From a virus, in IMG/VR virus record IMGVR_UViG_3300044955_000119, positions 1 to 41,324 of that record: DNA of 41,324 nt. The stretch is one strand, 5' to 3'. A program made the translations under genes and the position numbers. Within the stretch, counting starts at the first letter, position 1. Every line of letters begins with the position of its first letter. This document shows, piece after piece, positions 3,589 to 20,100 of the stretch. The notes beneath the pieces were generated by a model that made no database searches, was not told where the DNA came from, and was given only the letters and a program-made list of their open reading frames with translations.

Positions 3589-6500
3589 TTAAAAAGCTGT
3601 AGATTCAAGAGCATATGTAAATTCTACATAATCCTCAGCGAAATAGCTTTGTTGATATATTACGCCAGAATCTCCAGCTTCAACCGTATCAGACGTATTT
3701 TTATCTATATCTAAATTAGTCTGATCATTTGTATTGATTTGTTCATTTTGTGCTTTACTGATATTAAAGTCACTGGTTTCACTTACATTTGCAGTATTTG
3801 TAAATGGTAAGTAATATCCATTGCCTGTAGGTGATCTGTATTCGTAAGCTGTATAACCAATAGAATATGTATCGCTGTCGAAGTAATTTTGTTTATAAAT
3901 CAGATATGGATCTGAAACATTCGCTGTATCAATAAAGTCTTTAAGGGTTTGTACTAAAAGTTCTATTGTCTCGGTAACTTCAGAAGTATCTGTAAGGCTT
4001 CTGTTATATCCTACGGACTTTGTCAGAGATTCTGTAGCATTCGCTTGATCAGATCTTGCTTTGTTAAAGTCAATTACATTATTTTCAGTTGCATTCGCTT
4101 GATCTGCTCTTACTTTGTTAAAGTTAAGATCGCTTGTTTCAGTTGCGTTTGCTTGATCAGATCTTACTTTATTAAAGTCGATTATATTATTTTCAGAGGC
4201 AGATGTTGTATCACTTAATATTTTACCGAGTTCGATTGTAGTATTTTCAGACGCAGATGCCGTATCAACTCTCACTTTATCAAATACAAATGATGATACT
4301 TCTGACGTTTCAGTTGTATCGCTAAATGATCTATTGTAGTCAGTAGCACTTGTTAATAATTCAGATGCGTTTATTATATCACCTTCAACCATTCCGAATG
4401 TAAATGTAGATCCATCGGTCACACCTAATAGGTCTTTACCCAGAACTGTATCAGTAAATGATCTATTATAGTCAGTAACACTTGTTAGTAATTCAGCAAC
4501 CTCAGCTGCATCCGAAAGAACCTTATTAGATGTTATTTGACTGTTCTCAGAGGCAGATGTTGTATCACTTAAAACTTTAGCTAATGTAAATAGAAGACTT
4601 TCACTACCATTTGCTGCATCCGAAAGAACCTTATTAGATGTTATTTGACTGTTCTCAGAGGCAGATGTTGTATCACTTAAAACTTTAGCTAATGTAAATA
4701 GAAGACTTTCACTACCATTCGCCAACTCCGTAAACGGCAAGCCGAAGATATTGACTGTAGGAGATCTATAGTTAAATACGACATATGATTGGCCATTAAC
4801 GATGTAGTCGGAGTCAAAATAGTTCTGACTAAAGAGTTCGTATGTTTGATCTGCTTCAAGATTCTCTGTGAATTCTCTATTAATAACTAGAAGAAGCTCT
4901 AGAAGATCTGTTGTATTAGCTTGATCTGTGAAACTTCTATTATAATCAATGACCCTGGTCAGTGATTCGGTAGCATTAACTTGATCACCTTCAACCATTC
5001 CAAAGGTAAAAGTAGAATTATCCGACGTTTCAGTTGTATCGGTAAATGTTCTATTGTAGTCAACGATCTTTGTTAGTAATTCGCTAGCATTAACTTGATC
5101 TGATTCAGTCATACCAAATAAGAATGCAGAATTATCTGGCGTCTCGGTAGTATCAGTAATCGATCTATTGTAGTCAACAATTCTGGTAAATGATTCAGAT
5201 GCATTTGTTATATCACCTTCAACCATTCCGAATGTAAATGCAGAATTATCCGACGTTTCAGTTGTATCGGTAAATGTTCTATTGTAGTCAACGATCTTTG
5301 TTAGTGATTCGCTAGCATTAACTTGATCACCTTCAACCATTCCGAATGTAAATGCAGAATTATCCGACGTTTCAGTTGTATCGGTAAATGTTCTATTGTA
5401 GTCAACAATTCTGGTAAATGATTCAGATGCATTTGTTATATCACCTTCAACCATTCCAAAGGTAAAAGTAGAACCATCAGTTACACCTAAAAGATCTTTT
5501 CCTAATACGGTATCAGTCAAGACCTTACTGAGAACAAAAGCAAGATTTGTATCAACAGTGTTAATTTGATCTGTCGGATTTTTACCAAAAATAATTGTAC
5601 TAGTGTCTGTAGACTGGACTGAATCAAATCTATCTTTATTAAAGGTCCAGATCGAGTTTTCCGATACGGACATAGATTCCGTAAATGGAAGACCATAGAT
5701 ATCGAACAAGTCAGATCTATAGTTAAATACCACATAAGCTTGACCATTGACAATATAATCAGAGTCAAAGTAGTTCTGACTAAATAACTCATAGACTTGT
5801 GACGCTTCAAGATTTTCTGTTAAATTTCTATTGATAACAAGAAGAAACTCGACTAAATCTGAAGTATTCACTTGATTAGTAAAGCTTCTGTTATATGCTA
5901 CTTCTTTTAATATAGATTCGCTAACATCGACTTGATCTAATTCAGTCATACCAAAGACAAATGTTGGACCATCTGTAATTAATGCTGAATCGCTTAATAC
6001 CTTGTCGACAATAGCGGATAGAGATTCAGTTACATTAGTCTGATCTTCTCTATTTTTATTAAATGACCATATACTATTTTCACCAATACTAGTGATATCT
6101 GAAAATTCTCTATTATATTCCACAATTCTCGTAAGGAGATCTGACGCATTTGCCGCATCGCCTTCGACCATTCCGAACGAGAATGTAGAACCATCAGTCA
6201 CACCCAGTAGGTCTTTTGCTAGTGTGGTATCACTGAATGCTCTATTAAATTGAGTTATTTTGGTAAATGATTCTGTAGCATTTACAACATCGGAATTAAA
6301 TTTATTAAATGTTATCCGACTATTTTCTGAGACCGTAGAAGTATCATTTAAAACTTTAGCTAATGTAAATAGAAGACTTTCACTGCCATTCACTAACTCT
6401 GTAAATGGTAGACCGAAAATATTAATAGTCGGGGATCTATAGTTAAATACCACATAAGCTTGGCCGTTAACTATATAATCGGAATCAAAGTAGTTTTGAC

Positions 6501-9500
6501 TAAATAACTCGTAAGTTTGTGAAGCTTCAAGAAACTCGGTGAATTCTCTAATAAAGCTAACAAGAGTTGAAATTGACTCTGTAACATTTGCTTGATCAGT
6601 GAAACTTCTATTATAGTCAATGATTCTGCTAAAGACTTCGCTGACATTTGTTACATCACCTTTAACCATTCCAAACGAGAATGTAGAATTATCTGGTGTC
6701 TCGGTAGTATCAGTAATCGATCTATTGTAGTCGACGATTCGAGTAAATTGTTCAGTTGCATTTATTATATCTGCAAGAGATTTATCGAATTCTATTACTT
6801 TAGTTTCAATAACCGAAGAGCTATCAGTAAAGTTTCGGTTGAAACCTACCACTCTAGTAAACGTCTCACTGGCGTTAGCTATATCACCTTCAACCATTCC
6901 AAACGAGAATGTAGAACCATCAGTCACACCCAGTAGGTCTTTTGCTAAAGCAGTATCAGTAAATACCTTATAAAATCCAGATGCTATATTAAGTAATTCT
7001 ATAATATCTACTGCATCAGAGAGGGATTTATTAAATGCTATTTCGCTATTTTCTGAAGCAGTCAAAGATTCACTTAAGAATTTACCAGACGCTAGTAGAA
7101 GATTTTCGTTAACATTCAATAACTCTGTAAATGGTAAACCGAAGATATTAACCAATGGCGATCTGTAGTTAAATACAACGTATGATTGACCATTAACGAT
7201 ATAATCAGAGTCGAAGTAATTTTGGCTGAACAGTTCATATGTTTGTGGTATATTAACAGTTTCAGCAAAATCTCTAACAAATGTAACAATTCTAGTAAAT
7301 ATATCTACTGCGTCTGCATAATCAATAAAGGCTCTTCTTGCATCCAGTATAGTAGATATTGATTCGCTTGCATTTGCTATATCGTTTTTAACCATTCCAA
7401 AGGTAAACGTTGCACCATCAGTTACATCTAAAAGGTCTCCTCCTAAAGCGGTATCACTCAGAGTTCTATAATAACTTACAATCCTATTAAATTGTTCGGT
7501 CGCATTTACTATATCTGCAAGAGATTTATCGAATTCTATTACTTTAGTTTCGGTGGATAAAGCACTATCACTAAATAAACGGTTAAAGCTAACCGTACGA
7601 CCGAATACCTCGGCAGCGTTAACTGTATCACCCTCGGCCATTCCGAAGGTAAACGTTGCACCGTCAGTCACACCCAACAGATCTTTCGCTAGTGTGGTAT
7701 CGGTTAAAGATCTATAATAACTTACAATCCTATTAAATTGCTCTGTTGCATTTATTATATCTGCAAGAGATTTATCGAATTCTATTACTTTAGTTTCAAT
7801 AACTGAGGAACTGTCGTTAATATTTCGATTAAATCCAACTACTCGAGTAAACGTCTCACTGGCGTTAGCTATATCACCCTCGGCCATTCCGAAGGTAAAC
7901 GTTGCACCGTCAGTCACACCCAACAGATCTTTCGCTAGTGTGGTATCAGCTAATACTTTTGCAATTGCGAATTGTAAATCATTATCAATTGCATCTGTTA
8001 AATCAGATATTATTTTATTAGTTACAAAAGATTGAATATCGTCCGGATTAACAACATCTTGAATAAGTTTACCAAAACTTAAATAAGACACATCGCTGGC
8101 ATCCACCGGCAATTCTGTAAAGGGTAATCCAAAAATATTAATAGTCGGAGATCTATAGTTAAATACCACATAAGCTTGACCGTTAACAATATAGTCCGAA
8201 TCAAAATAAGTTTGCTGATAAAGGAAATAATCATCAGGTATATTTGATAGATCTGTTAATACTTTATTCGAATTAAAGTTTAAATTTTCAACCGAAGTGA
8301 TGATATCACCTTCAGACATTCCGAAGGTAAACGTTGCACCGTCAGTCACACCCAGCAGGTCTTTTGCTAGTGTGGTATCACTTAGAACTTTTTCTACCGC
8401 AAGCGATAAATCCTCGCTTGCGTTTACTATATCATCAATAAATCTTCTAAGATCAATGAATATTGATATTATTTCAGATATATTTGCTATATCAGATAGA
8501 TTTTTACCAGTATTGATCACACTATTTTCATTGACATTCGAAGATTCGGAAATATTACCCATATCGAATGAAAGTGAAATTGCTTCAATAATTTGACTGA
8601 CATCGCTGTATACTTTTTGTATGTCAAATGTATTACTATCAGACGATAGCGAAGTATCTAAAATAGATTTATTAATTTGGTAATTAAGCGATTCGCTTGA
8701 AGTAATAGATTCAGTAAAATCTCTGAATATTTGTAAAACCAGTCGAATTGATTCGCTTATATTAACAAGACTGGCTTCAACCATATTAAACTGGAATGTA
8801 GATCCATCGTTAATACCAACAAGATCTAAAGCATTCGAGACGTCCGATAGTACTTTTTGCAGAGAATAAGTTAAAATCTCATCATTTAATTCTGTAGTAT
8901 CTGAAAGCCCTTTATTAGAGTTAAGGGATTGATTATCACTAACATTAGAAATATCAAATTGGGGTTTATTCAATAACCATGCTGAATTCTCTAAAGCTTG
9001 CGCAGAATCGAATTGGGGTTTATTGTATAACCATGTTAGATTTTCATTTACATTAGATACATCAAATTCGCCCTTATTAAATGACCATATCGCATTTTCT
9101 ATTATGTTGAATAGATCTGATAGACCTTTATCTGTTATAAAGGTTGGATCTGCGTCAGATACTGATGCTGAATCTAAAGAAAGAGATTTATTAAATGTTA
9201 ATACAGCATTTTCATTCGCTTGGGCTAAGTCGAACAATGTCTTTAAAAGATTAAATGTAAAATCTTCTAAAGACTGAGCTTGATCATCTAATGATTTTAA
9301 TGTATTAAAAATTAAATTGTCGTCAAAAGTTTGCGCGGAATCAGAATAATAAGCATATACCCCAAGTACAACTAAAATTTGTTCCAGTATAACTGCTCGA
9401 TCTGATTCAGCCATCCCGAATGAAAAGGTAGACCCATCAGTAATACCTAATAAATCTTTTCCTAATACGGTATCGCTTAAAACCTTATCTACAATATAAT

Positions 9501-10248
9501 TAAGTGCCACAGAAGCATTAGCAGAGTCAGATGCACCTTTGTCGAATAATAAAGTACTACTATCAGTTACAGGGCCAGTTAGATCAGCTGGTAATTTGCC
9601 ATATTGGAACGTAAAGCTTTCATCTGCGCTAAATGTATCTTGAAGCGGCTTGCTATATTGGAATGTGAAGTTTTCAGAAGCAAGAGAAAGGTCCTGTCTT
9701 ACCGAACCAATCTGGAAGAATATATCACCATCACCGGCAATTGGGAAATCTTTAATACCTTTATTCGTGTCGAAAAAGGCAATATCATCTATACCAGCTG
9801 GATCGATAAAGTCCGATAAAGTTCTGCGTAATTGATAAGAAAATAATTCAAATGCATTTATGTCATCGGTTAATGGAATTCCCGGTAATGTTCTTAAACG
9901 TCCGAGAATATGTTTAGCAGAATCAATTTCAAATTCTCGAATAAACTGCCCGCTACCGACTAAAGAAAATGTAGGAGAATACGATACATTTATAGAACCT
10001 ACAATAGGTTTATCGATTTTATTCTCAAGGTGTTTACTTACTAATGGTAAATTAGAGTCACGATAAGATTTACTGAAAACACTAAATAAACTTTTTATAG
10101 CCTTACCAGTTAATAAAAAGTTTTTAGTATTTTCAGTATTTGTTGAACTAACGACAGGTCTATTAAATTTATTTTCTGATAAACCAGATACTACAGGAGA
10201 TCCAGAATCTCTATATGATTTACCAGATACACTAAAAGGGGGTTTCAT
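3589..10248 (-). CDS. Giant repeat structural protein (2219 aa), probable fibre or whisker
   Basis: A 2219-residue protein made almost entirely of degenerate 18-20-residue units, on the order of 100 copies. The unit pattern is E-N/S-x(5-6)-F/Y-N/D-K/R-x(3)-D-x(3)-N/A, for example 'ENSAWLLNKPQFDISNVS' and 'DNSAFTFGMVEGDITNAS'. A longer block, 'KDLLGVTDG' followed by 'TFTFGM', recurs many times. A second module, with 'NYFDSDYIVNG', 'YVVFNYRS' and 'FGLPFTE', occurs five times, with a divergent sixth copy and a truncated C-terminal copy. I saw no cysteine, signal peptide, membrane segment or enzyme motif. The start overlaps the 110-residue gene by one base (TAATG). It lies upstream of gp13, where T4 has gp10-gp11-gp12-wac, so a long fibre, whisker or adhesin is the best inference. 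I do not recognise a named family. Confidence 0.7.
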   Translation of the reverse strand: MKPPFSVSGKSYRDSGSPVVSGLSENKFNRPVVSSTNTENTKNFLLTGKAIKSLFSVFSKSYRDSNLPLVSKHLENKIDKPIVGSINVSYSPTFSLVGSGQFIREFEIDSAKHILGRLRTLPGIPLTDDINAFELFSYQLRRTLSDFIDPAGIDDIAFFDTNKGIKDFPIAGDGDIFFQIGSVRQDLSLASENFTFQYSKPLQDTFSADESFTFQYGKLPADLTGPVTDSSTLLFDKGASDSANASVALNYIVDKVLSDTVLGKDLLGITDGSTFSFGMAESDRAVILEQILVVLGVYAYYSDSAQTFDDNLIFNTLKSLDDQAQSLEDFTFNLLKTLFDLAQANENAVLTFNKSLSLDSASVSDADPTFITDKGLSDLFNIIENAIWSFNKGEFDVSNVNENLTWLYNKPQFDSAQALENSAWLLNKPQFDISNVSDNQSLNSNKGLSDTTELNDEILTYSLQKVLSDVSNALDLVGINDGSTFQFNMVEASLVNISESIRLVLQIFRDFTESITSSESLNYQINKSILDTSLSSDSNTFDIQKVYSDVSQIIEAISLSFDMGNISESSNVNENSVINTGKNLSDIANISEIISIFIDLRRFIDDIVNASEDLSLAVEKVLSDTTLAKDLLGVTDGATFTFGMSEGDIITSVENLNFNSNKVLTDLSNIPDDYFLYQQTYFDSDYIVNGQAYVVFNYRSPTINIFGLPFTELPVDASDVSYLSFGKLIQDVVNPDDIQSFVTNKIISDLTDAIDNDLQFAIAKVLADTTLAKDLLGVTDGATFTFGMAEGDIANASETFTRVVGFNRNINDSSSVIETKVIEFDKSLADIINATEQFNRIVSYYRSLTDTTLAKDLLGVTDGATFTFGMAEGDTVNAAEVFGRTVSFNRLFSDSALSTETKVIEFDKSLADIVNATEQFNRIVSYYRTLSDTALGGDLLDVTDGATFTFGMVKNDIANASESISTILDARRAFIDYADAVDIFTRIVTFVRDFAETVNIPQTYELFSQNYFDSDYIVNGQSYVVFNYRSPLVNIFGLPFTELLNVNENLLLASGKFLSESLTASENSEIAFNKSLSDAVDIIELLNIASGFYKVFTDTALAKDLLGVTDGSTFSFGMVEGDIANASETFTRVVGFNRNFTDSSSVIETKVIEFDKSLADIINATEQFTRIVDYNRSITDTTETPDNSTFSFGMVKGDVTNVSEVFSRIIDYNRSFTDQANVTESISTLVSFIREFTEFLEASQTYELFSQNYFDSDYIVNGQAYVVFNYRSPTINIFGLPFTELVNGSESLLFTLAKVLNDTSTVSENSRITFNKFNSDVVNATESFTKITQFNRAFSDTTLAKDLLGVTDGSTFSFGMVEGDAANASDLLTRIVEYNREFSDITSIGENSIWSFNKNREDQTNVTESLSAIVDKVLSDSALITDGPTFVFGMTELDQVDVSESILKEVAYNRSFTNQVNTSDLVEFLLVINRNLTENLEASQVYELFSQNYFDSDYIVNGQAYVVFNYRSDLFDIYGLPFTESMSVSENSIWTFNKDRFDSVQSTDTSTIIFGKNPTDQINTVDTNLAFVLSKVLTDTVLGKDLLGVTDGSTFTFGMVEGDITNASESFTRIVDYNRTFTDTTETSDNSAFTFGMVEGDQVNASESLTKIVDYNRTFTDTTETSDNSAFTFGMVEGDITNASESFTRIVDYNRSITDTTETPDNSAFLFGMTESDQVNASELLTKIVDYNRTFTDTTETSDNSTFTFGMVEGDQVNATESLTRVIDYNRSFTDQANTTDLLELLLVINREFTENLEADQTYELFSQNYFDSDYIVNGQSYVVFNYRSPTVNIFGLPFTELANGSESLLFTLAKVLSDTTSASENSQITSNKVLSDAANGSESLLFTLAKVLSDTTSASENSQITSNKVLSDAAEVAELLTSVTDYNRSFTDTVLGKDLLGVTDGSTFTFGMVEGDIINASELLTSATDYNRSFSDTTETSEVSSFVFDKVRVDTASASENTTIELGKILSDTTSASENNIIDFNKVRSDQANATETSDLNFNKVRADQANATENNVIDFNKARSDQANATESLTKSVGYNRSLTDTSEVTETIELLVQTLKDFIDTANVSDPYLIYKQNYFDSDTYSIGYTAYEYRSPTGNGYYLPFTNTANVSETSDFNISKAQNEQINTNDQTNLDIDKNTSDTVEAGDSGVIYQQSYFAEDYVEFTYALESTAF
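4505..4720 (-). repeat. 108-bp tandem duplication inside the giant repeat gene
   Basis: Two adjacent copies, 4505-4612 and 4613-4720, are identical except for their last base (T versus C). The period of 108 bp equals 36 codons, i.e. two 18-residue protein units, so the frame is kept. Near-identity at the DNA level points to a very recent duplication. Confidence 0.95.
5212..5406 (-). repeat. Paired 81-bp identical blocks with a 114-bp period
   Basis: Positions 5212-5292 and 5326-5406 are identical, offset by 114 bp (38 codons, one 18- plus one 20-residue unit). A related, slightly diverged copy lies around 4980-5075. The blocks encode the 'NSAFTFGMVEGD' unit followed by the 'DYNRTFTDTTETS' unit. 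Confidence 0.9.
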
Positions 10249-10580
10249 TATACACGGGTAACAGCGGGTGTAACAGTCACCATACCTTCTATTACTCTGT
10301 ATCTTTCTCCACCAGAATCTTCAATATAGACGTCATAAACGTATCTTCCAGCTGTAATAGCAGCTGTTTCTTCATCAGTCATGGTTAATAGTATTCTACC
10401 GGCAGAAGGATTTTCAGTCGTAAATGTCCCAGCTACCGAAGAAGATCTATATGTTTTTCTGATCTGACTTGTAATAGTAACCCCAGTAAGATTATATGGA
10501 CCACCCGAGGTAGTTTTTAAATCTACTTGATATCTAAATGTAGATCCCTGATCAATTTCTAGTTCTTCGTACAGAGCCAT
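10248..10580 (-). CDS. Small beta-rich structural protein coupled to the giant repeat gene (110 aa)
   Basis: A 110-residue protein with an immunoglobulin-like layout: 'DQGSTFRYQVDLKTTSGGPYNLTG', then 'VTITSQIRKTY', then 'GRYVYDVYIEDSGGERYRVIEGMVTV'. This resembles the small beta-sandwich found at the N-terminus of BppU-like baseplate upper proteins and in stand-alone phage structural proteins ('D.G.....L....G...DLTG.TV...I'). GGGGTG precedes the ATG at 10580. Its stop overlaps the start of the giant repeat gene by one base, which suggests coupled translation and a shared job, such as an adaptor or assembly partner for the large protein. Family placement is by pattern only. Confidence 0.6.
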   Translation of the reverse strand: MALYEELEIDQGSTFRYQVDLKTTSGGPYNLTGVTITSQIRKTYRSSSVAGTFTTENPSAGRILLTMTDEETAAITAGRYVYDVYIEDSGGERYRVIEGMVTVTPAVTRV

Positions 10581-10606: not shown

Positions 10607-10614
10607 TATTTATG
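10607..10614 (-). promoter_or_regulatory. Possible late promoter, CATAAATA variant
   Basis: The minus strand reads CATAAATA, one base off the TATAAATA late consensus, 27 nt upstream of the start at 10580. It lies in the longest intergenic gap, just downstream of a candidate terminator, which is where a promoter for the 110-residue and giant repeat genes would be expected. The first-base mismatch lowers certainty. Confidence 0.45.
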
Positions 10615-10700: not shown

Positions 10701-11066
10701 TCACACCTTCTTCCGACAAAATCTTTTACATTCAGGCAAGGCAGTATCTTCAGAATCCCATGATTCAGGTAAAGTTTTAGTAAACCATTCGTTATTTAGT
10801 ATTTCTTCCAGTGGGGTATGATTAACATTATACTGTTTTTTATTTTTATAATATGCACCCCATACTGGTGCCTTTTCCTTTACGTAATGATCCCAATCCC
10901 ATCCTACTATTTTATACTTGTCAGTATTTTGCATATCCCTTTCATATGAAAGATTTGCTAGATAACAACACGGCATTACTTGACCATCTGGATTAATTAA
11001 AACCCTATTAAATTTCATCCATTGACACTCAATACCTAACTTATTTGCATTTAATTGTTTCATCAT
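10701..11066 (-). CDS. SPASM/twitch iron-sulfur domain protein (C-terminal half of a radical SAM enzyme)
   Basis: 121 residues resembling the auxiliary Fe-S cluster domain normally fused behind a radical SAM core. Cysteines sit at C14, C33, C34, C113 and C117 in the usual arrangement: 'GIECQWMKFNRVLINPDG', then 'VMPCCYL', and a final 'ECKRFC'. The gene overlaps the radical SAM gene by 26 nt in the +1 frame. AAAAGGA lies 4 nt before the tandem ATG ATG at 11066, so reinitiation is possible. A TGA lies four codons upstream in this frame, so the protein cannot begin much earlier. Either the enzyme is truly made as two chains, or a frameshift has broken a formerly single gene. The domain would accept electrons or anchor a peptide or other substrate. 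Confidence 0.75.
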   Translation of the reverse strand: MMKQLNANKLGIECQWMKFNRVLINPDGQVMPCCYLANLSYERDMQNTDKYKIVGWDWDHYVKEKAPVWGAYYKNKKQYNVNHTPLEEILNNEWFTKTLPESWDSEDTALPECKRFCRKKV

Positions 11067-11814
11067 AAATCCTTTTCATATGATGATCATCGTTTAGATC
11101 AAAAACTTTTCCGAATATATCTTTGGATAAATTAGATTCTTCTAAAATATCCTGATTCCCGAATTCATCATAAAATTCAAATCCTGAACCATTCCAAAAA
11201 CGATTTGATTTGGTATAAATGATACCCTCAGCACCATGTGATTTTACCAATTTGGCTATATCATATAAGCTTTTTTCATTGTGTTTAAATACTACTGTAA
11301 AAACTTGAGAAAGTCCTTGCGCCAAACTAAATGATTCCATATTTTCTAATATAAGATTTAGATTGGTTTTCTGTCTGTATTTAGAATGTTGTTCTTGGGT
11401 AATACCTTCTATAGCCCATATTACCTTTATTCTTTTACCGCCTAATAATCCTAAATCCCACCACCAATTCGAATCTCGAATACTACCATTTGTATTAATG
11501 CCTATTTGAATATGATCATTTGCTTTTATAATATATTCTACGATTTTAAATATATCTTTATTCATTATTGGATCACCCCAAGTACCACAAATATCCATAT
11601 ATTTAATATGTCTTAAAGTACTTTCGGGGAAGTACTTTTTAAATTCTTCAAAAGACCATTGGACCAGAGGAAGCCATTCTGCCTTATTTAACCCATTCGG
11701 ATTTGTTCTATGACATTGAGGGCATGCCGCATTACAATACGTGCTAAGATCTAACCATACCCCCAATCTCTTTTCTCGGTATCTTTCATTGTAATTTCTT
11801 ACAATATTTTCCAT
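11041..11814 (-). CDS. Radical SAM enzyme core domain
   Basis: Radical S-adenosylmethionine core, 257 residues from the chosen start. The cluster motif CxxxCxxC is 'STYCNAACPQCHR' (C27, C31, C34). It is followed by 'YMDICGTWGDPIMNKDIFKIVEYI', the GGEP-equivalent SAM-binding segment, and by 'IQIGINTNGSIRD' and 'IKVIWAIEGITQEQHSKYRQ', the later strands of the partial TIM barrel. It lacks the C-terminal SPASM cluster, which is encoded next. An ATG at 11829 is also open, but the ATG at 11814 has GGAAAG upstream and is preferred. The gene overlaps the glycosyltransferase before it. The substrate is unknown; neighbours suggest sugar or protein modification. Similar enzymes occur in marine T4-like phages (recollection). 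Confidence 0.85.
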   Translation of the reverse strand: MENIVRNYNERYREKRLGVWLDLSTYCNAACPQCHRTNPNGLNKAEWLPLVQWSFEEFKKYFPESTLRHIKYMDICGTWGDPIMNKDIFKIVEYIIKANDHIQIGINTNGSIRDSNWWWDLGLLGGKRIKVIWAIEGITQEQHSKYRQKTNLNLILENMESFSLAQGLSQVFTVVFKHNEKSLYDIAKLVKSHGAEGIIYTKSNRFWNGSGFEFYDEFGNQDILEESNLSKDIFGKVFDLNDDHHMKRIYDETIKCK

Positions 11815-12475
11815 AATCTTTCCATTCATGTGGTTTATTCGTACTACGAGTAAAGTGAACCATCTTTATATCTTGATGAAAGTCATTACCGTCGTATAGT
11901 TTATTCCCGGTAATTTCGAAATATTTATCCTCGATTTTTTGGGTGCTAATATCTGGATCACTTATCCACCGGGTGAACCAGGCATCTGGCATAAGTTTTA
12001 GATCCATGCCATACAAGCTATCTTGAACAAACATAAACTCCCCATTCACCGGACCAATAGTTAAACCAGCTTTGATATAGTAATTCGTGTAGTATGGAAT
12101 ATCACCAATAAACTTTTCATAGATGTGTCTCGTTCTGCTTGGCCAGAACTTGTAAAAGCCTCCCGCCATCTTAAACGGTGTACCGTTAAAGTTCCACCAA
12201 TACGGAATAGAAACAAACTCATTCTTTGCACATGGATAGTTAATCACTTCATGGTAATCGTGGATAAGAAGCTTATCGATATCCATTACAATTACAGGTT
12301 CGTCGATATCCATACCGAAGACCTGTAGTTTATTCCATTGTAGCGGAACCCACTTATGAAAAGGCTCACGAATCCAATGGACGTCGTGACCTTCTAACTT
12401 GCTGTTGATATAATTTTCATATTCAGGACCATACTTTGTTCCGATCCTTACACAAAATACTTTCAAAGAAACCAT
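11786..12475 (-). CDS. Glycosyltransferase-like protein, GT-A fold (229 aa)
   Basis: Predicted nucleotide-sugar transferase. The N-terminus 'LKVFCVRIGTKYGPEYENYI' and the metal-binding DxD-type motif 'VIVMDIDKLLIHD' (D65-D67) mark a GT-A fold. It is a clear paralogue of the protein at 13930-14577, whose N-terminus reads 'YNVMCVKFGTKYSAEFVN'. 'LQWNKLQVF' before the DxD corresponds to 'GVWNKLRLF' in the paralogue. The C-terminal 'IKMVHFTRSTNKPHEW' resembles the HF..S..KPW end of such enzymes. No membrane segment is seen, so it should be cytoplasmic. The start overlaps the previous gene by 13 nt. Donor and acceptor are unknown. Confidence 0.75.
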   Translation of the reverse strand: MVSLKVFCVRIGTKYGPEYENYINSKLEGHDVHWIREPFHKWVPLQWNKLQVFGMDIDEPVIVMDIDKLLIHDYHEVINYPCAKNEFVSIPYWWNFNGTPFKMAGGFYKFWPSRTRHIYEKFIGDIPYYTNYYIKAGLTIGPVNGEFMFVQDSLYGMDLKLMPDAWFTRWISDPDISTQKIEDKYFEITGNKLYDGNDFHQDIKMVHFTRSTNKPHEWKDYGKYCKKLQ

Positions 12476-13335
12476 TCCATTTTTTTGTTAATGCAGTGGT
12501 ATAGTTTTGCATCCGGATCACATGCATTTTTATTCGTTTTCTTTTCGTCAACGATATAATGCCACGACCCATTTAGATATTCAATTAGTATATCTTTCGA
12601 GTGAACAAGATAAGAAAACAAAGTTTCGTTATCATAACCGAATACACGACGAATGTTGTAGGGATACATGGAATCTTCGTCAGTCTTCAGTTCTGTCATT
12701 AGATCCAAATTCTCACGGAAGTTTTCAAAGTAACCTAGTTTTTTAATAATCTCTGACGATGCAACCATGATACCAGTATTAAATACATCATTATCCGGTT
12801 CATAGCCTTTTTCGAGTAACATAGCATGTGCATTCCAATACTTTGTAGCCGGATTACGAATACAAGTATTATAATTTTTCGGAGCTACGATCTTACCCCA
12901 GTGCGCTAGCGCGTTCGAGTGCGCGCATCCAAACTTATTATGGATATCATGCGCTTCAAAAATATCCTCAGTTGTATTTGGAATAACATCAAAATCTAAA
13001 TAGCAGACAGCATCATATTTGTCTGCCATTTGTCTCATAGTCCAGTGCTTATAGAAGTTTACGATATCATAATGCGAGACCTCAGGATAGTCAGTCTCAA
13101 ACATCTCTACAAAATCCTGATATTCCTTATCCCATTCATACAGATGATAATTAGCACCAATTGCTTCAGCGTATTGCTTATGACGCTCTACAACCTTATC
13201 GTAGTTGTTTAACAGCGCCAACTTTGTTTGTAGACTTTTATCGGTTTGAACCTGTACGCCGTTTTCAAACCAACCAGGGTTATCTAATTTATTTTCCGGT
13301 ATGTCTACAAATACGCTGTAAACTACTTTTTTCAT
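12463..13335 (-). CDS. Glycosyltransferase-like protein, GT-A fold (290 aa)
   Basis: Second sugar-transferase-like enzyme of the cassette. The layout is an N-terminal strand 'KKVVYSVFVDI', a helix region 'YDKVVERHKQYAEAIGANYHL', then 'YKHWTMRQMADKYDAVCYLD' and the DxD motif 'YLDFDVIPN' (D114-D116). A later segment contains 'NTGIMVASSEIIKKLGYF', the usual small-residue strand after the donor pocket, and a C-terminal 'AKLYHCINKK' that could supply a metal-binding histidine. It is not close in sequence to the other two transferases here. The start overlaps the methyltransferase stop (ATGA), with GGAAA just upstream. Soluble; the substrate cannot be deduced. Confidence 0.75.
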   Translation of the reverse strand: MKKVVYSVFVDIPENKLDNPGWFENGVQVQTDKSLQTKLALLNNYDKVVERHKQYAEAIGANYHLYEWDKEYQDFVEMFETDYPEVSHYDIVNFYKHWTMRQMADKYDAVCYLDFDVIPNTTEDIFEAHDIHNKFGCAHSNALAHWGKIVAPKNYNTCIRNPATKYWNAHAMLLEKGYEPDNDVFNTGIMVASSEIIKKLGYFENFRENLDLMTELKTDEDSMYPYNIRRVFGYDNETLFSYLVHSKDILIEYLNGSWHYIVDEKKTNKNACDPDAKLYHCINKKMEWFL

Positions 13336-13955
13336 TTTCCAATTACCATATGCCTATTAAAATCTCCTAAATTTAATGTACCAGTGTATGCAATATAATC
13401 TAATTTTAATTCTAAAGCAAACAATTTAGGATCAGGCCAACAGTTAATATGAGCATTTAATGCTGTATAATCATTCGTTTGAAAACAGATCCAGGTATTT
13501 TTAGGTTTATTTTTTACGATATTGATCAGATCTTCCTGCTCCATATGTTCGCAACTTGTATTAACAATAGCTGAATACGGTGAAAAATCAATTGGTTCAT
13601 GTACATCTAACGTTTTAAATGCAACATCTTGATCGTGAAATAATTCCCAACCATAACATTCACACATAGGATCCATATCACTAGAAGTAATATTCATACT
13701 AGCATTAGGCCACAACTTACGAAGTTGATATGCCATCATTCCATACCATCCTCCGACGACTAAAATATTTCCGTTCGGATGATTGTAGTTTTTATATAGT
13801 TCTTTTGCTAGCCATTCTTTACCCTCCCAGTGATTCTTATCAACTGAGTGCACTAAATCTTTAATACGAAATAAATCATCCACCCCATACATTGATTCAT
13901 CGTACACTTTTTCACAAAGCTTTAGAACTCTATTTAAGATCGTCGAGTCCAACAT
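13332..13955 (-). CDS. Class I SAM-dependent methyltransferase-like protein
   Basis: About 207 residues with a Rossmann-type core. Motif I is 'GNILVVGGWYGMMAYQL', where the usual GxGxG is GGWYG. The acidic end of strand 2 is 'ITSSDMDPMCECYG', strand 4 is 'YSAIVNTSCEHM', and the next strand is 'NTWICFQTNDY'. The reading frame is open from a TTG at 13967, but AGGAG lies four bases before the ATG at 13955, so that ATG is chosen. It overlaps the glycosyltransferase upstream by 26 nt and the next one downstream by 4 nt, so it is part of the same operon. It probably methylates a sugar or an intermediate of the cassette. The target is inferred from neighbours only; a DNA-methylase motif (DPPY or similar) was not seen. 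Confidence 0.72.
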   Translation of the reverse strand: MLDSTILNRVLKLCEKVYDESMYGVDDLFRIKDLVHSVDKNHWEGKEWLAKELYKNYNHPNGNILVVGGWYGMMAYQLRKLWPNASMNITSSDMDPMCECYGWELFHDQDVAFKTLDVHEPIDFSPYSAIVNTSCEHMEQEDLINIVKNKPKNTWICFQTNDYTALNAHINCWPDPKLFALELKLDYIAYTGTLNLGDFNRHMVIGK

Positions 13956-14577
13956 CAATCTCCTCAAATGTCAATACACATGGTTCATAATCTACTTCAG
14001 GTTGATATTTTTTCGATTGAATATATTTCTTATCAAACACAAAGTGATTTACTTCGAAGTCTTCATGTACCAGGTATCTGTCAATACCAACATATTTACG
14101 CATGAAATAATCGCGGAATCCTGATTCGTTAAAATATGTCCAATATTCATACATTTCTTCATTTGATGCATCCCATGTCATGACTGAACTATTAATTCTT
14201 ACATCATAATTTGCTAAACGATCGTATAGCTTTCCTTGCTTCCAGTGTGAATGAACAAGGGTAAGTTTTTCCCAGTCACGTTCATCATCGTGGATAAGTG
14301 GATCTTTTAATATTTTCACATCTAGGTCGAAGAAATACGTTTTGCCTTCGATAGGCATTTCAGGATCAAACAATCTAAGTTTGTTCCATACACCCTTAAG
14401 AGTGGGTCTACCCAGAGGCAAAATAATATTTACCTCTGGATCAATATTAGTGGGATCGTCTGTATAACAAAAGAATTTAAATTCTGCTTTTGTTAATCTT
14501 TTAAGATCATTATAAAGTTTATTTACAAATTCAGCACTATACTTCGTGCCGAATTTTACACACATCACATTATACAT
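13930..14577 (-). CDS. Glycosyltransferase-like protein, GT-A fold (215 aa)
   Basis: Sugar transferase of a type I associate with marine T4-like phages. The N-terminus 'YNVMCVKFGTKYSAEFVNKL' leads to 'FKFFCYTDDPTNI', then 'GVWNKLRLF' and the DxD motif 'YFFDLDVKIL' (D84-D86). A 'NSSVMTWDASN' segment follows, matching the acceptor-side strand of GT-A enzymes. It is the best-preserved of the three transferases and the paralogue of the 229-residue one at 11786-12475. The ATG at 14577 follows AAAGGAATAAT and lies one base after the stop of the 169-residue gene. It is the first gene of the modification cassette and has no promoter of its own that I can see, so late read-through expression is likely. 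Confidence 0.8.
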   Translation of the reverse strand: MYNVMCVKFGTKYSAEFVNKLYNDLKRLTKAEFKFFCYTDDPTNIDPEVNIILPLGRPTLKGVWNKLRLFDPEMPIEGKTYFFDLDVKILKDPLIHDDERDWEKLTLVHSHWKQGKLYDRLANYDVRINSSVMTWDASNEEMYEYWTYFNESGFRDYFMRKYVGIDRYLVHEDFEVNHFVFDKKYIQSKKYQPEVDYEPCVLTFEEIDVGLDDLK

Positions 14578-14578
14578 A

Positions 14579-15088
14579 TTATTCCTTTAAAGAAATATAA
14601 ATCTGTAATAGTTCACTAAGGGATTTAGCTTTTCTAATAGAAAGTTTAAGTTTTTTATCTTCGGATTTTTCAACAATCGAATCTTCTAACATTGCAATCT
14701 TAGTATTAAATACAAAGTCAAGATCTTTATCTTTCGAATCAATAACAGAAAGTAAATCTTTTGCAGTAACTTCTGAAGATTTTATATGATCCGTGTTAAA
14801 TTTATATTGTAGATTTTCTCGATCGATACCGCCCAAACGTTTTTCTATTGCTTCTTCTACTATTTTATCGAGATTCTTTTTTTCCAATTCAATCTGGTTC
14901 TGTGTATTTTGTTCAATCTGCTCTAAACCAATTTCTCCAAGAAGATCATTAAAATCCTGTTGTGTGAAATCGACACTTAAAGTATAAGGTGTTACTATAT
15001 CACCTTCTCGATATAGTATTTCGATTAACATATTGTTAGGAGGATCTATGAATTGTGCAGATACTATTTTTCCGCTGAAAATTGCCAT
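14579..15088 (-). CDS. Conserved phage protein of unknown function (169 aa)
   Basis: I do not recognise a named family, although the opening 'MAIFSGKIVSAQFIDPP' looks familiar from marine T4-like phages. Residues 1-45 are beta-prone ('MLIEILYREGDIVTPYTLSV'). From about residue 55 the protein is highly charged and helical, with E/K/Q-rich stretches such as 'EQNTQNQIELEKKNLDKIVE' that could form a coiled coil. AGGTGA precedes the ATG at 15088. The gene lies between virion structural genes and the sugar-modification cassette, only 1 nt from the first glycosyltransferase. A small virion or assembly protein is plausible but not shown by the sequence. Confidence 0.55.
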   Translation of the reverse strand: MAIFSGKIVSAQFIDPPNNMLIEILYREGDIVTPYTLSVDFTQQDFNDLLGEIGLEQIEQNTQNQIELEKKNLDKIVEEAIEKRLGGIDRENLQYKFNTDHIKSSEVTAKDLLSVIDSKDKDLDFVFNTKIAMLEDSIVEKSEDKKLKLSIRKAKSLSELLQIYISLKE

Positions 15089-15109: not shown

Positions 15110-16045
15110 TTAAACTTGCGTAATTTTTAAATTATATGTAGAGATAGTTTGTGGTGTGCCGCTCGGAACTTCCTGTGTACGATAATCATCTGCATCTACG
15201 AATCTTGTAAGATAGGTAGAACCGTCGAGCCTCGTATCAGTCATAGCAGTACCACGATTATTACCTGTACCATTGATACTATAAGAAATTTTAGTACCGG
15301 CAATTTCTGCAGCATAATAACGTATCATATCTTCAAGAGCTGTTTGAAAAGTAGCTGAAGGAGTTTGCTGAAGATCGATGCCGCTTTTCGTATAACATAT
15401 TGGAAGTTCATGACCTGCCGCGGAGGCAGAATTAACTCTATGAAGATAGTAATTAGTAATAGTAATAGGCTGGTCCAGCGTATTAGGAATAGATCCAGCA
15501 AGATACGCAGAAGCATCTGCCCTGGTATCGGTAAATATAGGGGTTGATGAGCCGCTTACCTCAGTTGCTCCTGCCACTGAAGAAGAAGTCGAAATAAAAT
15601 AAGTACCTGCTTGAGCTGTACCAGTTGAACCCGAAGTAAGAGTATCAATCGCAGGATAAATGAAGGTATCTGCAAAATCTGTTGCAGTCATTTCTCTTAG
15701 ATCACTGCCATCGTAATACATCGGGTAAGAATATGTTGCGTCTGTCCAAGATACTTCTGAAGTATCATAAGCCTGATTTATTTTAGAGTAATTTACTGTT
15801 GTAGTTGATACGTCCGGGGTTTCAGCAGGCGTATCGTAATCGACAGTATCGGTTGTCCCTGCACCAGCAATTAATCGTGTATCAGACATGGTACCTAGAT
15901 TACCGCCAGATCCTACTACCGATAATGTAACAGAGGGACTAAGACCATATAGTCGAATAGCTTCTGTTTGTATAGCTTCAATTTCAGCAGTAGTCATTTC
16001 CCTTAAATCACTACCGTCAAGTTTTAGTGGGGTTCTAACTGCCAT
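15110..16045 (-). CDS. Putative virion structural protein with duplicated 'DGSDLREMT' module (311 aa)
   Basis: A T/S/G-rich protein with two related modules. 'LKLDGSDLREMTTAEIEAIQ' begins at about residue 7 and 'MYYDGSDLREMTATDFADTF' at about residue 109; both are followed by a helix and then by beta-prone sequence. Each module is followed by a '..MTDTRL/MSDTRL' type segment ('GGNLGTMSDTRLIAG', 'NNRGTAMTDTRLDG'). I recall proteins opening with 'P.K..G..L.EM' as virion structural proteins in marine T4-like phages. GGAAG precedes the ATG at 16045. No enzyme motif, cysteine-rich region or membrane segment stands out. Role beyond virion component is unknown. Confidence 0.6.
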   Translation of the reverse strand: MAVRTPLKLDGSDLREMTTAEIEAIQTEAIRLYGLSPSVTLSVVGSGGNLGTMSDTRLIAGAGTTDTVDYDTPAETPDVSTTTVNYSKINQAYDTSEVSWTDATYSYPMYYDGSDLREMTATDFADTFIYPAIDTLTSGSTGTAQAGTYFISTSSSVAGATEVSGSSTPIFTDTRADASAYLAGSIPNTLDQPITITNYYLHRVNSASAAGHELPICYTKSGIDLQQTPSATFQTALEDMIRYYAAEIAGTKISYSINGTGNNRGTAMTDTRLDGSTYLTRFVDADDYRTQEVPSGTPQTISTYNLKITQV

Positions 16046-16047
16046 TA

Positions 16048-16974
16048 TTAACTTCCTGCACCATATAAGGTTTTAAGAGGTGTGCCTGTGCTATTATATA
16101 TTACTAAAGAAACTTCATCTTTTAATTTAGCTCTTGATACTGCATCATTAGCTAATTTACCCTCGATAATAGCCAAGTTGTCTATTTGGGTTGTACCGAT
16201 ACTCGCGATAGAAACTGCACCTAATGTAACCGTAAAATCATTTGTATTAAAAGATGCAATACCTTTATTAGTAGTGGTTGCATCTTCACCTGAAATAACT
16301 CCAGATGCAATATCTATACCTTCACCGGCACTAAAGTGTGCTCTAACTTCTGATGCGCTTGGTCCGGTGTATGTAATAACCCCAGACGTTGAATTATATG
16401 ATAGTGAGCCATCACCACCGGCGTCAGTGACAGAGATCTTACCACGAATTGTTGCATCGGAAATACTAAATGTGCCCGCCGCCGAGCTATATGTAGTATT
16501 TGTCCCGCTAGCAAAATGGGCTCTAACTTCTGATGCGCTTGGTCCGGTGTATGTAATAACCCCAGAGGTAGAATTATATGATAATGAACCGTCACCACCA
16601 GCATCAGTTACTGAGATTTTTCCGCGAATTGTTGTATCAGAAATACTGAATGTACCTGCAGCTGAGCTATATGTAGTATTTGTCCCGCTAGCGAAATGGG
16701 CTCTAACTTCTGATGCACTCGGACCTGTATAAGTTAATACGCCATTTGTTGCATTATATGATAGTGAGCCATCACCACCGGTGTCAGTGACAGAGATTTT
16801 ACTTCTGAAATCCAGATCTGAATCAATCAGCGCGTATACTTCATTAATAGCAGAAACTAAATCTGTTGCGGTAGTATTTAAGGTTTCTGCATCTCCAGCA
16901 TCTGCAGATAGGCCATTAAATTTCGTAACAAGTGTACCAAAATTATCGGTTATATTAAGTGTAGTAATAGCCAT
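16048..16974 (-). CDS. Tail-fibre-like protein with three 60-residue repeats (308 aa)
   Basis: The N-terminal 75 residues contain 'ISDNFGTL'-like and 'TDLVSAINEVYALIDSDLDF' sequence, helical and typical of the trimerising neck before a fibre shaft. Then come 2.6 copies of a 60-residue beta module ('ISVTDAGGDGSLSYNSTSG', 'VITYTGPSASEVRAHF'), a motif widespread in phage tail fibres. The C-terminus has 'IDNLAIIEGKLANDAVSRAK', a second helical trimerisation-like segment, and the tag 'LVIYNSTGTPLKTL', shared with the 65-residue protein at 2838-3035. The start overlaps the upstream small gene by one base (TAATG). Probably a trimeric appendage; it lacks an obvious receptor-binding head. Confidence 0.7.
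   Translation of the reverse strand: MAITTLNITDNFGTLVTKFNGLSADAGDAETLNTTATDLVSAINEVYALIDSDLDFRSKISVTDTGGDGSLSYNATNGVLTYTGPSASEVRAHFASGTNTTYSSAAGTFSISDTTIRGKISVTDAGGDGSLSYNSTSGVITYTGPSASEVRAHFASGTNTTYSSAAGTFSISDATIRGKISVTDAGGDGSLSYNSTSGVITYTGPSASEVRAHFSAGEGIDIASGVISGEDATTTNKGIASFNTNDFTVTLGAVSIASIGTTQIDNLAIIEGKLANDAVSRAKLKDEVSLVIYNSTGTPLKTLYGAGS
16333..16797 (-). repeat. 180-bp tandem repeat, 2.6 copies
   Basis: Copies at 16797-16618, 16617-16438 and the partial 16437 to about 16333, read on the minus strand, each encode the same 60-residue module. Copies 1 and 2 differ mainly at third positions, and long identical stretches (for example around 16340-16385 and 16520-16565) show limited divergence. 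The copy number could change by recombination without breaking the frame. Confidence 0.9.
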
Positions 16975-17177
16975 TATAGTTTCTCTATGATCTGGGTTAG
17001 CATGGATTTGATATCATTAACATCTTGCTTCAATTGCTCAATCTCCTGCTTTTGCCTGTTACGATTCTCTTTTGCTTTTTTAGCTGTATTAACTGCAGAA
17101 GTATTTATATTAATTACCGCACCAGTTTCCGGATCTCTTCCAAATCCCGGTGCGTTATCAGATCTTATCACTTTCAT
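16974..17177 (-). CDS. Small coiled-coil phage protein (67 aa)
   Basis: A 67-residue protein. The N-terminal 20 residues, 'IRSDNAPGFGRDPETGAVIN', form a short 'PG..RD..TGA..N' motif that I recall from small conserved proteins of marine T4-like phages. The rest is a heptad-like helix rich in K, E and Q ('KKAKENRNRQKQEIEQL', then 'DVNDIKSMLTQIIEKL'), which predicts a coiled coil. The start overlaps the DUF4815 gene stop and the end overlaps the fibre gene start, both by one base (TAATG), so it is coupled to both. An oligomerising adaptor or assembly helper is a reasonable guess; no function is shown directly. Confidence 0.6.
   Translation of the reverse strand: MKVIRSDNAPGFGRDPETGAVININTSAVNTAKKAKENRNRQKQEIEQLKQDVNDIKSMLTQIIEKL
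17102..17109 (-). promoter_or_regulatory. Possible internal late promoter (TATAAATA)
   Basis: An exact TATAAATA on the minus strand inside the 67-residue gene, 128 nt before the fibre gene start at 16974. In this AT-rich DNA an 8-mer inside coding sequence may be chance, so confidence is low. Confidence 0.3.
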
Positions 17178-20100
17178 TATACCGCCAGCGCAATTGTCCG
17201 TATATCTTTAAAGGTCGGCACTTTTGCTTGGTTCTGAGAAACCATAACAATTTTAATCTGCATCTGGTTAAATGCATCAAGCGTACCAGTGTTACCACCA
17301 ATCAGATATTCGTACTCTCTAAATATTTCAGGATTCTCATCACTGATTAATCCAGACGATGGGGAAACTGCTGTCCATGAAATATCTGCAATATTATCAT
17401 CACCAGAAGCTACACGATAGTATACGTCGAATGAAGCATCGTTCGGTTTATTTGCAGTAACGAATAGCTTCATACCTACTGCATCTTGTGCTAAAGTAAT
17501 TACTTTACTAATATGTTTAGCAACTGATGAGCCACCTTTTGGATTCGTTTCCGAAACGTAATTAATAGGAACGTTAAATCCAGCTGCTGGAGTTTCAGAT
17601 GGTTTATCGATAATATTATTAACTGCAATAACTGTAGCTCTTTGCATATCAACAACCGGTGATACGTTCTGGTCAAACGTTTTCATGGATAATTTCAAGT
17701 TAAAGCTCTTATTACCACTTAGATATGCAGTTTCATTATCCGCATTTGCAATCATTCTTGGATTATCAAATACGATGTTTTTACCTAATGAGACGCCTCT
17801 GTATGTAGTAGATAGCTGATAAGCTGTTTCTGTACCAGCAATTGATTGACCACTGGTAGTTGCAATTGACGGAACAATCTGGGCAGCCGGCGGAATTAAT
17901 GTGGACAAGTTAATATTTGCAATATCCATTAGAATATTCTGATCTGCTAAGATTGCACTACCACCACCGATCTCGGCAGATGTAGAAGCAGAATCAGCTT
18001 CAAATTGATAACCAGTTGCATCTACTACCGTAATAGTTCTAGCACCGTTAATAGAAGATGCACTAATACCTGCCAGATCGATTGCACCCGAAATATTAAC
18101 TGTATCACCAACTGTAAAACCATGACTTGGCTGATATACCGTGATAGTAGCATCGGCCGAATCGACTGACATAGGATCTTCAGTTAATAGTTTTTGTGGT
18201 ACATTCGTATTAGTTAATGTAGCAACCCCTTGTGTATTACTAAATTTTGCTACGTGGATCTGCATTTTCAGATCTTCCCACTGAACAGGTGTCCAAGTAC
18301 TGTTATTTTGGGATTTGAATAGAGACCCTAGGAATGGCTGTTTAACAATTTTTCTATCTGTTGTACCAAGTTCAAAATCGCCTACTCTTGAAATATAAAC
18401 TTTATAAGTAGGAACGCTAGAAATTAGAACAAAGCAATATTCTTTACCTGGAGCAAGATAAACGGGTTCGTCAAACTCGAAAGTTGTTGCTACACTTGCA
18501 TCTGTTGATGTAGTTATATCGGTAGGGAATTTAAATACTGTAGAACCCCCAATAATCTCAGGCGATGGGAATCCGTTATTCATAGCACGAATTTGGCCCC
18601 ATACTGGAGCAGTACCTGGATCTTTTGCAGCAAAATAGATATCTACCTTAGTAGCAAATACCCCGTTTTGTTCAGAAACTCTAAACGATTGCGCTAATGG
18701 ATCATCATTACCTTCACCCATACATGCAGGACCTGGAACCGGATTAACAAAAGCTACTTCACCAGTTACAGTATTTCTCCACCAATTAGCTGGATCGGTT
18801 GATTCTGCAATCCATTCTCCGGTAGGTGCTCTTGGAGTAGGTATAACAGTATCATTCGTACCCACACCATTATCGGTATCAATAGAAGTACCTGAAACGC
18901 TTGTAGTATTAGTTACTCTTGAACTACTGGTTTCAGAAGTACTAGTTGAAGTAGCAATTTCTAAGATTCTTGTACTAAGAACATCTTTTTGTCTTGTTTC
19001 CAAAACACCTTGCGAAGTGAATTTCTGTATACCATAAGATGTACTAAATTCCACGTTATTAGGATCTGTAGCATCGATCAATGTAAAAATTCGCGTGCCA
19101 GCATTAAATCTAAGATTAGCTGTAGAAGGAATAAAGAATGAACCTTCAATATCACCATTTGCGTCGGCAATAAGTGGTGAAGATCCTTCTGGATGACCTA
19201 AAGCGGTATTATTAACGTTGCCGACAGTTTGTGGATCATCAGAGGTTCTTACGAAAGTCTCAGATCTACACCAATCAGAAACATCAACTTTATCGAAGAA
19301 AGGAAATACCTCAGTGTCTGGTCTAAATCCTCTACCTTGGAAATAGATTTTTCTAGATCTCATAAATGGTATAGTGGCTGTCTGTAGAAGCCTATCCCCG
19401 ACAACTTCTCTGATAGTCGTTTCGCCTACGACGCGGTTTAAACCCGTTTGAGTAGAAGTCCATGATGTTCTAACAGTTTCTGTCCCACCAAAGCCATAAT
19501 CGCCTGTAGTTTCTCTAACGCTTGTGCTAGACCCGCTGCTAGAACTGAGTGTAATGGTATTAGTAGTTGATCCAACACTAAGTTGATCAATAGGTGTTCC
19601 ACCCCAATTCCACTCATGATCATTCCAAAGATTTGCACCGCTTGTGTCGAGCTGGGTTTGAGTTACTACTGAATCAGGCTGATATGATTTTTCAATCCAG
19701 TTATCACTTGCCGGAGAAAGAGTAATATTACCGTTAAATCTTGTTTGCCAGAATGGTAAAACATTTTCTGTATCACTTGCCATATTCTGATTGATATATG
19801 ATCTATGAGTATATTTCAGATAAATGTTATCGCCTCTTTTGACCACATTCGAATTTAAAACATTATCAGAATCATACATCAAGTTGATTGCATCAGTATT
19901 TCCGCGCGGTCTCATATATTTTTCCACGGGATCAATTGCTGCATTATAGTCAGGATCACTTACATCAGAAAAGAAGTGATTTGTAAATGTATCAACAAAG
20001 AAGCCCGATTTGGTCCTATTATTACCATCGGAATCCAAAACTGCTAGGTTTGCTGTATCAAGCTCCAGAAGGGTAAGAGAGGTTACTTCTTCTAGAGAAT

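Follow-up and report, generated by a model that had tools for sequence, protein, structure and literature searches.

The virus record IMGVR_UViG_3300044955_000119 of IMG/VR (41,324 nucleotides, called the window here at its full length) carries a cassette of six genes at positions 10701-14577, which encode three glycosyltransferases (GTs), a methyltransferase, a radical SAM enzyme and a free-standing SPASM protein. The cassette lies on the minus strand, as do the neighbouring genes and putative promoters located below. In related phages it is found almost exclusively together with one conserved fibre-like protein, o311 (15110..16045), and we give an even chance to the reading that it is a soluble, phage-encoded set for glycan assembly and tailoring that serves a conserved virion protein, most likely o311. 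The initial annotation, made from the sequence of the window, had also proposed modification of virion proteins, and this is still the best reading; the target it suggested, a giant 2219-residue protein, fails.

Co-occurrence of the cassette with o311

So that the cassette itself did not decide which loci were compared, contigs were retrieved with the C-terminal part of VrlC. A locus was scored if the view extended 5.5 kb or more downstream, or as far as the o110/gp13 border; counts are given in the order both, protein only, cassette only, neither. In a first sample, whose query alignment was built from phages that carry the cassette, o311 and the cassette were distributed 28/0/2/14 (Fisher 1e-9), and in a second sample, with an alignment mostly from o311-negative phages, 8/0/0/34. 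When both samples are combined and identical VrlC tails are counted once, the distribution is 31/0/2/37 (Fisher p = 7e-18), and the two cassette-only exceptions encode a protein of the same size in the same place with a weak match to o311 (E 5e-5 and 0.003). When loci were anchored on o311 instead, 61 of the 62 with 3 kb or more visible downstream had cassette enzymes.

The neighbours of o311 follow the cassette less closely. In the first sample the association amounted to p = 2e-5 for o169 (14579..15088), the small protein between o311 and the enzymes, and to p = 0.004 for the tail-fibre-like o308 (16048..16974; PHROG tail fiber 2e-6), which was rejected as a partner because its association is much weaker than that of o311. 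The L-shaped-tail-fibre assembly-like protein o110 (10248..10580) shows no association with the cassette in the same sample (p = 0.75) and was likewise rejected; it marks the downstream border.

The repetitive protein of 2219 residues (3589..10248), rich in S, T and N, was the target suggested in the initial annotation, where independent distribution of the two was named as refuting the idea. Exactly such a distribution was found in the first VrlC sample (0/1/30/13, p = 0.32), and the link between giant protein and cassette therefore fails. Its gene sits after o110, which has its own late-promoter-like site, other phages carry different fibres downstream of o110, and a giant-like protein is encoded in locus L159 without any cassette. 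Nearness to the cassette, 61 N-x-S/T sequons and an S+T content of about 21% (S 11%, T 10%) would suit an acceptor, but with this contradiction at family level and a separate late-promoter-like site for its unit it is very improbable that the cassette decorates this protein. The protein contains 8% N, six YFDSD-type blocks spaced by about 240-330 residues, and ten copies of a TDGxTFxFGM repeat; it received no PHROG function, and L003 and L159 encode weak relatives.

Of 50,697 phage records, only that of Pelagibacter phage Mosig (EXVC030M) was found to hold homologues of o311 (MT647606 72526-73446), GT290 and MT211; 2373 of the same records hold a relative of gp13. By VrlC, Mosig also counts as one of the nearest named relatives, so ancestry contributes to this result. 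In Mosig (L115, MT647606 60990-71305), o311 is followed by an island on the opposite strand with genes for nitroreductases, three MoaA-like radical SAM proteins, a DegT aminotransferase, a carbamoyltransferase, a methyltransferase and GT290. Several o311-negative phages (L145, L151, L158, L169, L188) show another arrangement, in which a large fibre is followed by a weak o169 homologue, a 250-aa GT-like gene, a 222-230-aa gene and then o110. The 250-aa neighbours are GT-like by eye and gave no Pfam match; fibre, o169-like protein and enzyme may form a general pattern.

A constant protein beside variable enzymes

Pairwise identity over 76 loci has a median of 43% for o311, as against 30% for the VrlC tail and 27%, 26% and 24% for GT215, MT211 and o169, respectively. 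In the same loci 42 different ordered enzyme sets occur downstream of o311, and relatives add genes for carbamoyltransferase, Asp/Asn hydroxylase, FkbM methyltransferase and aminotransferase. The simplest reading is that of a conserved acceptor under variable decoration; in a fibre whose own sequence determined the choice of host, one would expect more variation than o311 shows. A wider idea, which we put forward tentatively, is that a large group of marine phages keeps o311 comparatively constant and diversifies the surface of this protein by an interchangeable GT/methyltransferase/rSAM-SPASM module that moves between lineages together with o311. Adhesin variation would then be glycan-based instead of sequence-based, and radical peptide or sugar chemistry would take place on the virion.

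The AF2 model of o311 (pLDDT 96.2) gave no fold match in PDB or BFVD with Foldseek, where an extended or trimeric fibre may escape as a monomer, and we make no claim of a new fold. As no fold was matched, the term fibre is taken from the place of o311 among fibre genes.

Identity of the enzymes

In transcription order the genes are GT215 (13930..14577), MT211 (13332..13967, TTG start), GT290 (12463..13335), GT229 (11786..12475), rSAM (11041..11829) and SPASM121 (10701..11066), with successive overlaps of 38, 4, 13, 44 and 26 bp; o169 precedes them by 1 bp and o110 follows after 120 bp. All six open reading frames were verified on the strand of the structural genes, and the three GT-A-like transferases and the methyltransferase of the initial annotation are present, overlapping, exactly where it had placed them. 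They are more than chance reading frames, since independent IMG/VR contigs hold the same genes in the order GT215-MT211-GT290-GT229-rSAM-SPASM, with protein identities of about 40-78%; additional fused SPASM-rSAM genes often come next there.

The DxD motif (D84-L-D86 in GT215, D114-F-D116 in GT290, D65-I-D67 in GT229) is invariant across 41-43 diverse members in each of the three GT families. PF01501, the GT8 family of Pfam, was not matched by the window proteins themselves in the Pfam search, but by 19 of 43 relatives of GT290 (best 8.5e-9) and 3 of 41 of GT215, so the GT8 assignment holds at clan level only. The GT215 protein of the window matches a PHROG glycosyltransferase (1e-6). GT229 has no Pfam match; its AF2 model (pLDDT 93.6) is supported as a GT-A fold by a fold search with glycosyltransferases throughout the matches listed, which places GT229 by model and the other two GTs by sequence. 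The best fold neighbour is GlyE (Z 14.0), followed by a GT8 protein (13.9), WbbM (13.8), LgtC (13.5) and the PBCV-1 capsid glycosyltransferase (12.6). The presence of GlyE and the capsid enzyme favours a protein acceptor. Because the same fold serves protein and lipopolysaccharide (LPS) acceptors, it does not decide the target; the structure comparison proposed in the initial annotation was carried out for GT229 and confirmed the fold.

T4-like phages glucosylate their DNA, and radical SAM, carbamoyltransferase and aminotransferase genes accompany the relatives, as might be expected if the enzymes built a modified base. The T4 DNA glucosyltransferases, however, are GT-B enzymes, while those of the cassette are GT8-like and GT-A, and the location in a structural operon and the strict link to a fibre-like protein also argue against DNA hypermodification, which we consider hardly credible.

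For MT211, Methyltransf_25 of Pfam was matched by 5 of 50 relatives, and the family profile matches spermidine synthase/methyltransferase Rossmann domains (6.6e-6), that is, the SAM-binding profile of class I SAM-dependent methyltransferases is found at family level; the window protein alone gave no Pfam match. Sequence searches of PDB with small alignments returned nothing for the GTs or the methyltransferase, and larger alignments brought a gain for MT211 and, weakly, GT229 only.

The radical SAM Pfam match of rSAM (3.8e-5) is under Pfam's own cut-off, and the CxxxCxxC motif of the superfamily (C32, C36, C39) is invariant in ten members. Its neighbour SPASM121 (PF13186, 4.4e-8) is a free-standing SPASM/twitch auxiliary FeS protein, so that the 'radical SAM pair' of the initial annotation comprises one radical SAM enzyme and a separate protein of another kind. 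As both domains also occur fused in relatives, SPASM first, as NF033640 proteins, domain content suggests that the split pair probably forms one enzyme. Against the NF033640 cut-off of 170 bits for twitch-domain radical SAM proteins, rSAM scores 42.7 and SPASM121 has no match; two of three fused neighbours in locus L005 lie above it (184 and 310). The window thus resembles NF033640 proteins in combining SPASM/twitch and radical SAM domains, and fused members adjoin the split pair in relatives, but here the domains are separate genes in the order rSAM-SPASM. Over the relatives the two are split in both orders and also fused (L002-L008; window 10701-11829). In L009 and L010, rSAM+SPASM arrays lie apart from cassette GTs and structural genes and adjoin genes that are carbamoyltransferase-like and nucleotidyltransferase-like by eye. 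The start MNGKIM of rSAM falls in the overlap with GT229, and the real start may be an ATG 15 bp further in.

None of the six proteins has a membrane-like segment (maximal 19-aa Kyte-Doolittle value 0.91), which disfavours a Gtr-type O-antigen system, and neither a Gtr-type flippase (GtrA) nor a membrane GT was matched in the cassette with Pfam or NCBIfam.

Promoters and transcription units

The T4 late promoter consensus is TATAAATA. It is no more frequent in the window than expected by chance and stands out by its placement: five of seven occurrences lie 0-40 bp upstream of a gene start on the correct strand, while only about 2.4% of window positions fall 0-60 bp upstream of a gene start. 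One copy (17102..17109) is located inside o67, 127 bp before o308, the first gene after it, at a position kept in relatives. A variant, CATAAATA (10607..10614), precedes o110 by 26 bp, with the cassette on one side of it and o110 and the giant gene on the other. These two sites suggest that o308, o311, o169 and the cassette probably form one late unit, and o110 and the giant gene another. As the initial annotation had seen, the cassette has no promoter of its own, at least none of the T4 late type directly before any of its genes in the window; the sole ATAAATA in the cassette, GATAAATA, lies inside GT229 (11922). Among the distinct upstream regions of relatives, the late motif was found before o110 in 41/56 and before gp13 in 26/36, but before GT215, MT211, GT290 and GT229 in 1/121, 8/107, 1/87 and 1/94, respectively.

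A possible route to a decorated o311 and its rivals

If o311 is the acceptor, o308, o311, o169 and the six enzymes would be transcribed late from the promoter-like TATAAATA inside o67. One GT would then start the glycan by linking a sugar to a side chain of freshly synthesised o311, and the others would lengthen it, in keeping with the fold of GT229 and the DxD motif of all three, the acceptor and the sugar donors being presumed. MT211 could methylate a sugar or end group, and rSAM, with SPASM121 as its putative auxiliary-cluster subunit, may introduce a further radical modification of sugar or peptide, as the domains of both suggest. From its position, o169 may guide the enzymes to o311 as an adaptor or chaperone. 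The outcome would be a constant protein under a changeable coat, and such a coat could adjust attachment or protect the fibre.

Several points weigh against o311 as the acceptor. The virion glycan is a prediction from genes alone. One o311-anchored locus, L258, lacks the cassette, and LPS enzymes (LgtC, WbbM) are among the fold neighbours of GT229. The cassette is opposite in orientation to o311 in 54 of 168 relatives, also in the isolate Mosig, and inverted cassettes are mostly without a visible late promoter; the late motif stands directly before a cassette gene in only three inverted loci, most inverted blocks running off the fetched stretch. Because of the inverted copies, late expression, as assumed in the initial annotation, is plausible in this phage from the site before o308 and unsupported as a general trait. 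Adjacent genes may be co-inherited through linkage alone, and the sign test controlled for the VrlC tree gives p = 0.25 with too few pairs (underpowered). Finally, enzymes that changed the receptor of a fibre would likewise be expected to pair tightly with that fibre.

The last of these points leads to the strongest rival, in which the envelope of the infected host (LPS core or O-chain) is what the enzymes modify. The receptor of an o311-type fibre would be masked in this way, and adsorption of progeny and related phages to the dying cell prevented (superinfection exclusion); a glycan that blocks superinfection was also the alternative raised in the initial annotation. Such pairing of fibre and receptor also yields the co-occurrence of o311 and cassette, the LPS enzymes among the fold neighbours would fit, and modification of the O-chain is what has been proposed for such pelagimyophage genes in the passages of PMC7029224 that concern them. 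On the other hand, no membrane GT, flippase, polymerase or lipid-carrier enzyme was recognised in the cassette, the block lies downstream of a late-promoter-like site in this window, and o311 is more conserved than the neighbouring baseplate protein, unlike a receptor-specific binding protein. We therefore regard envelope modification as possible but rather unlikely.

Linkage and shared ancestry would also explain the pairing if the cassette were mere cargo of a hypervariable island without functional link to o311. Such an island is described at this site in the relevant passages of PMC7029224, adjacent genes co-transfer and the sign test is underpowered. Yet the enzymes shuffle and invert (42 arrangements in 76 loci) and in the VrlC-anchored samples never occur without o311 or its weak homologue, whereas o110 and o308, equally near, associate far less, and the block persists at other sites; cargo is thus an improbable explanation. 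On the VrlC tree (70 rows) o311 changes 8-10 times and the cassette 8 times, and the independent pairs agree, 3/3 if weak o311 is counted. The clearest case is that of L147 and L162, near sisters with full support, where the entire block of o311, o169 and cassette makes the difference; scanning with a single VrlC protein for more sister pairs gave two other loci only. The block is also found without VrlC or neck genes nearby (L111, L197, L198, L233/L234, L273). Modest support for the pairing comes from partial Mantel co-divergence, which is 0.47 for o169-MT211, 0.40 for o311-GT290, 0.31 for o311-GT215, 0.20 for o110-MT211 and 0.16 for o311-MT211, and not significant for o311-GT229.

In L197 and L198, contigs of a Rhodobacteraceae metagenome-assembled genome (MAG), o311-o169-rSAM-GT215-MT211-GT290 blocks lie beside genes that look GroES-like, nuclease and curli-like by eye; o311 of L197 has 823 aa. 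These were not accepted as cellular homologues, as the contigs look phage-like and probably are phage contigs binned in the MAG.

Comparison with known systems

The host recognition cluster of pelagimyophages and cyanomyophages extends from VrlC to the neck genes, is hypervariable, and holds tail fibres, GTs (GT8 most frequent) and radical SAM cassettes, as set out in the passages on it in Zaragoza-Solas et al. (2020; PMC7029224). The cassette of the window occupies the same place, between a VrlC homologue (17177-22504) and neck genes (1188-2825), in a region that is non-syntenic and hypervariable across relatives and contains tail fibres with GT and radical SAM genes. The difference is that those passages assign the GTs to O-chain modification and name no protein partner, while here o311 accompanies the enzymes. 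Site and GT/radical SAM genes have thus been published, and the dedicated pairing with one conserved fibre-like protein is new.

Virion glycosylation has been established experimentally for capsid proteins of mycobacteriophages Che8 and Rita (Freeman et al., 2023 and others, as cited in PMC11256854). Going by that citing text, these phages likewise encode their own GTs and carry glycans covalently on virion proteins; there the capsid is concerned, here a protein of the tail-fibre region, with a methyltransferase and rSAM/SPASM in addition, known from genes alone. In the chlorovirus PBCV-1, A064R and A061L let a viral GT, a second GT and a methyltransferase act jointly on the capsid glycan (PMC9614988). 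The window shares with it a GT/methyltransferase set and the fold of GT229, a likeness of fold and layout, not of sequence membership. PBCV-1 differs as an algal virus with an N-glycan of the major capsid protein, one fused polypeptide and no radical SAM. The pneumococcal serine-rich adhesin PsrP is encoded with GlyE among neighbouring dedicated GTs. One surface protein with adjacent dedicated GTs, of which GlyE is the best fold match of GT229, recalls the arrangement in the window, but PsrP is a cellular adhesin with its own secretion system.

So far, the GT and radical SAM genes that marine T4-like phages carry have been classed as modifiers of the host surface, with no known target. The near-exclusive pairing with o311 provides a specific candidate acceptor, and homologues are carried by a cultured phage, Mosig (on HTCC1062). 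If o311 is indeed the acceptor, this would be self-glycosylation of a tail-region protein by a phage, and the hypervariable island would vary the coat and not the protein; if instead the host surface is modified, the same pairing tells which fibre matches which receptor change.

Other features of the locus

The window covers the structural region of a marine myovirus of the T4 type and encodes the sheath stabiliser, neck proteins, VrlC (o1775) and the wedge and hub of the baseplate; the 41-kb record is probably a fragment. The reduced cassettes of L102, L103, L186 and L189 have, between MT211 and GT290, a gene for a protein of 138 aa that contains long hydrophobic stretches and is DUF454-like by eye.

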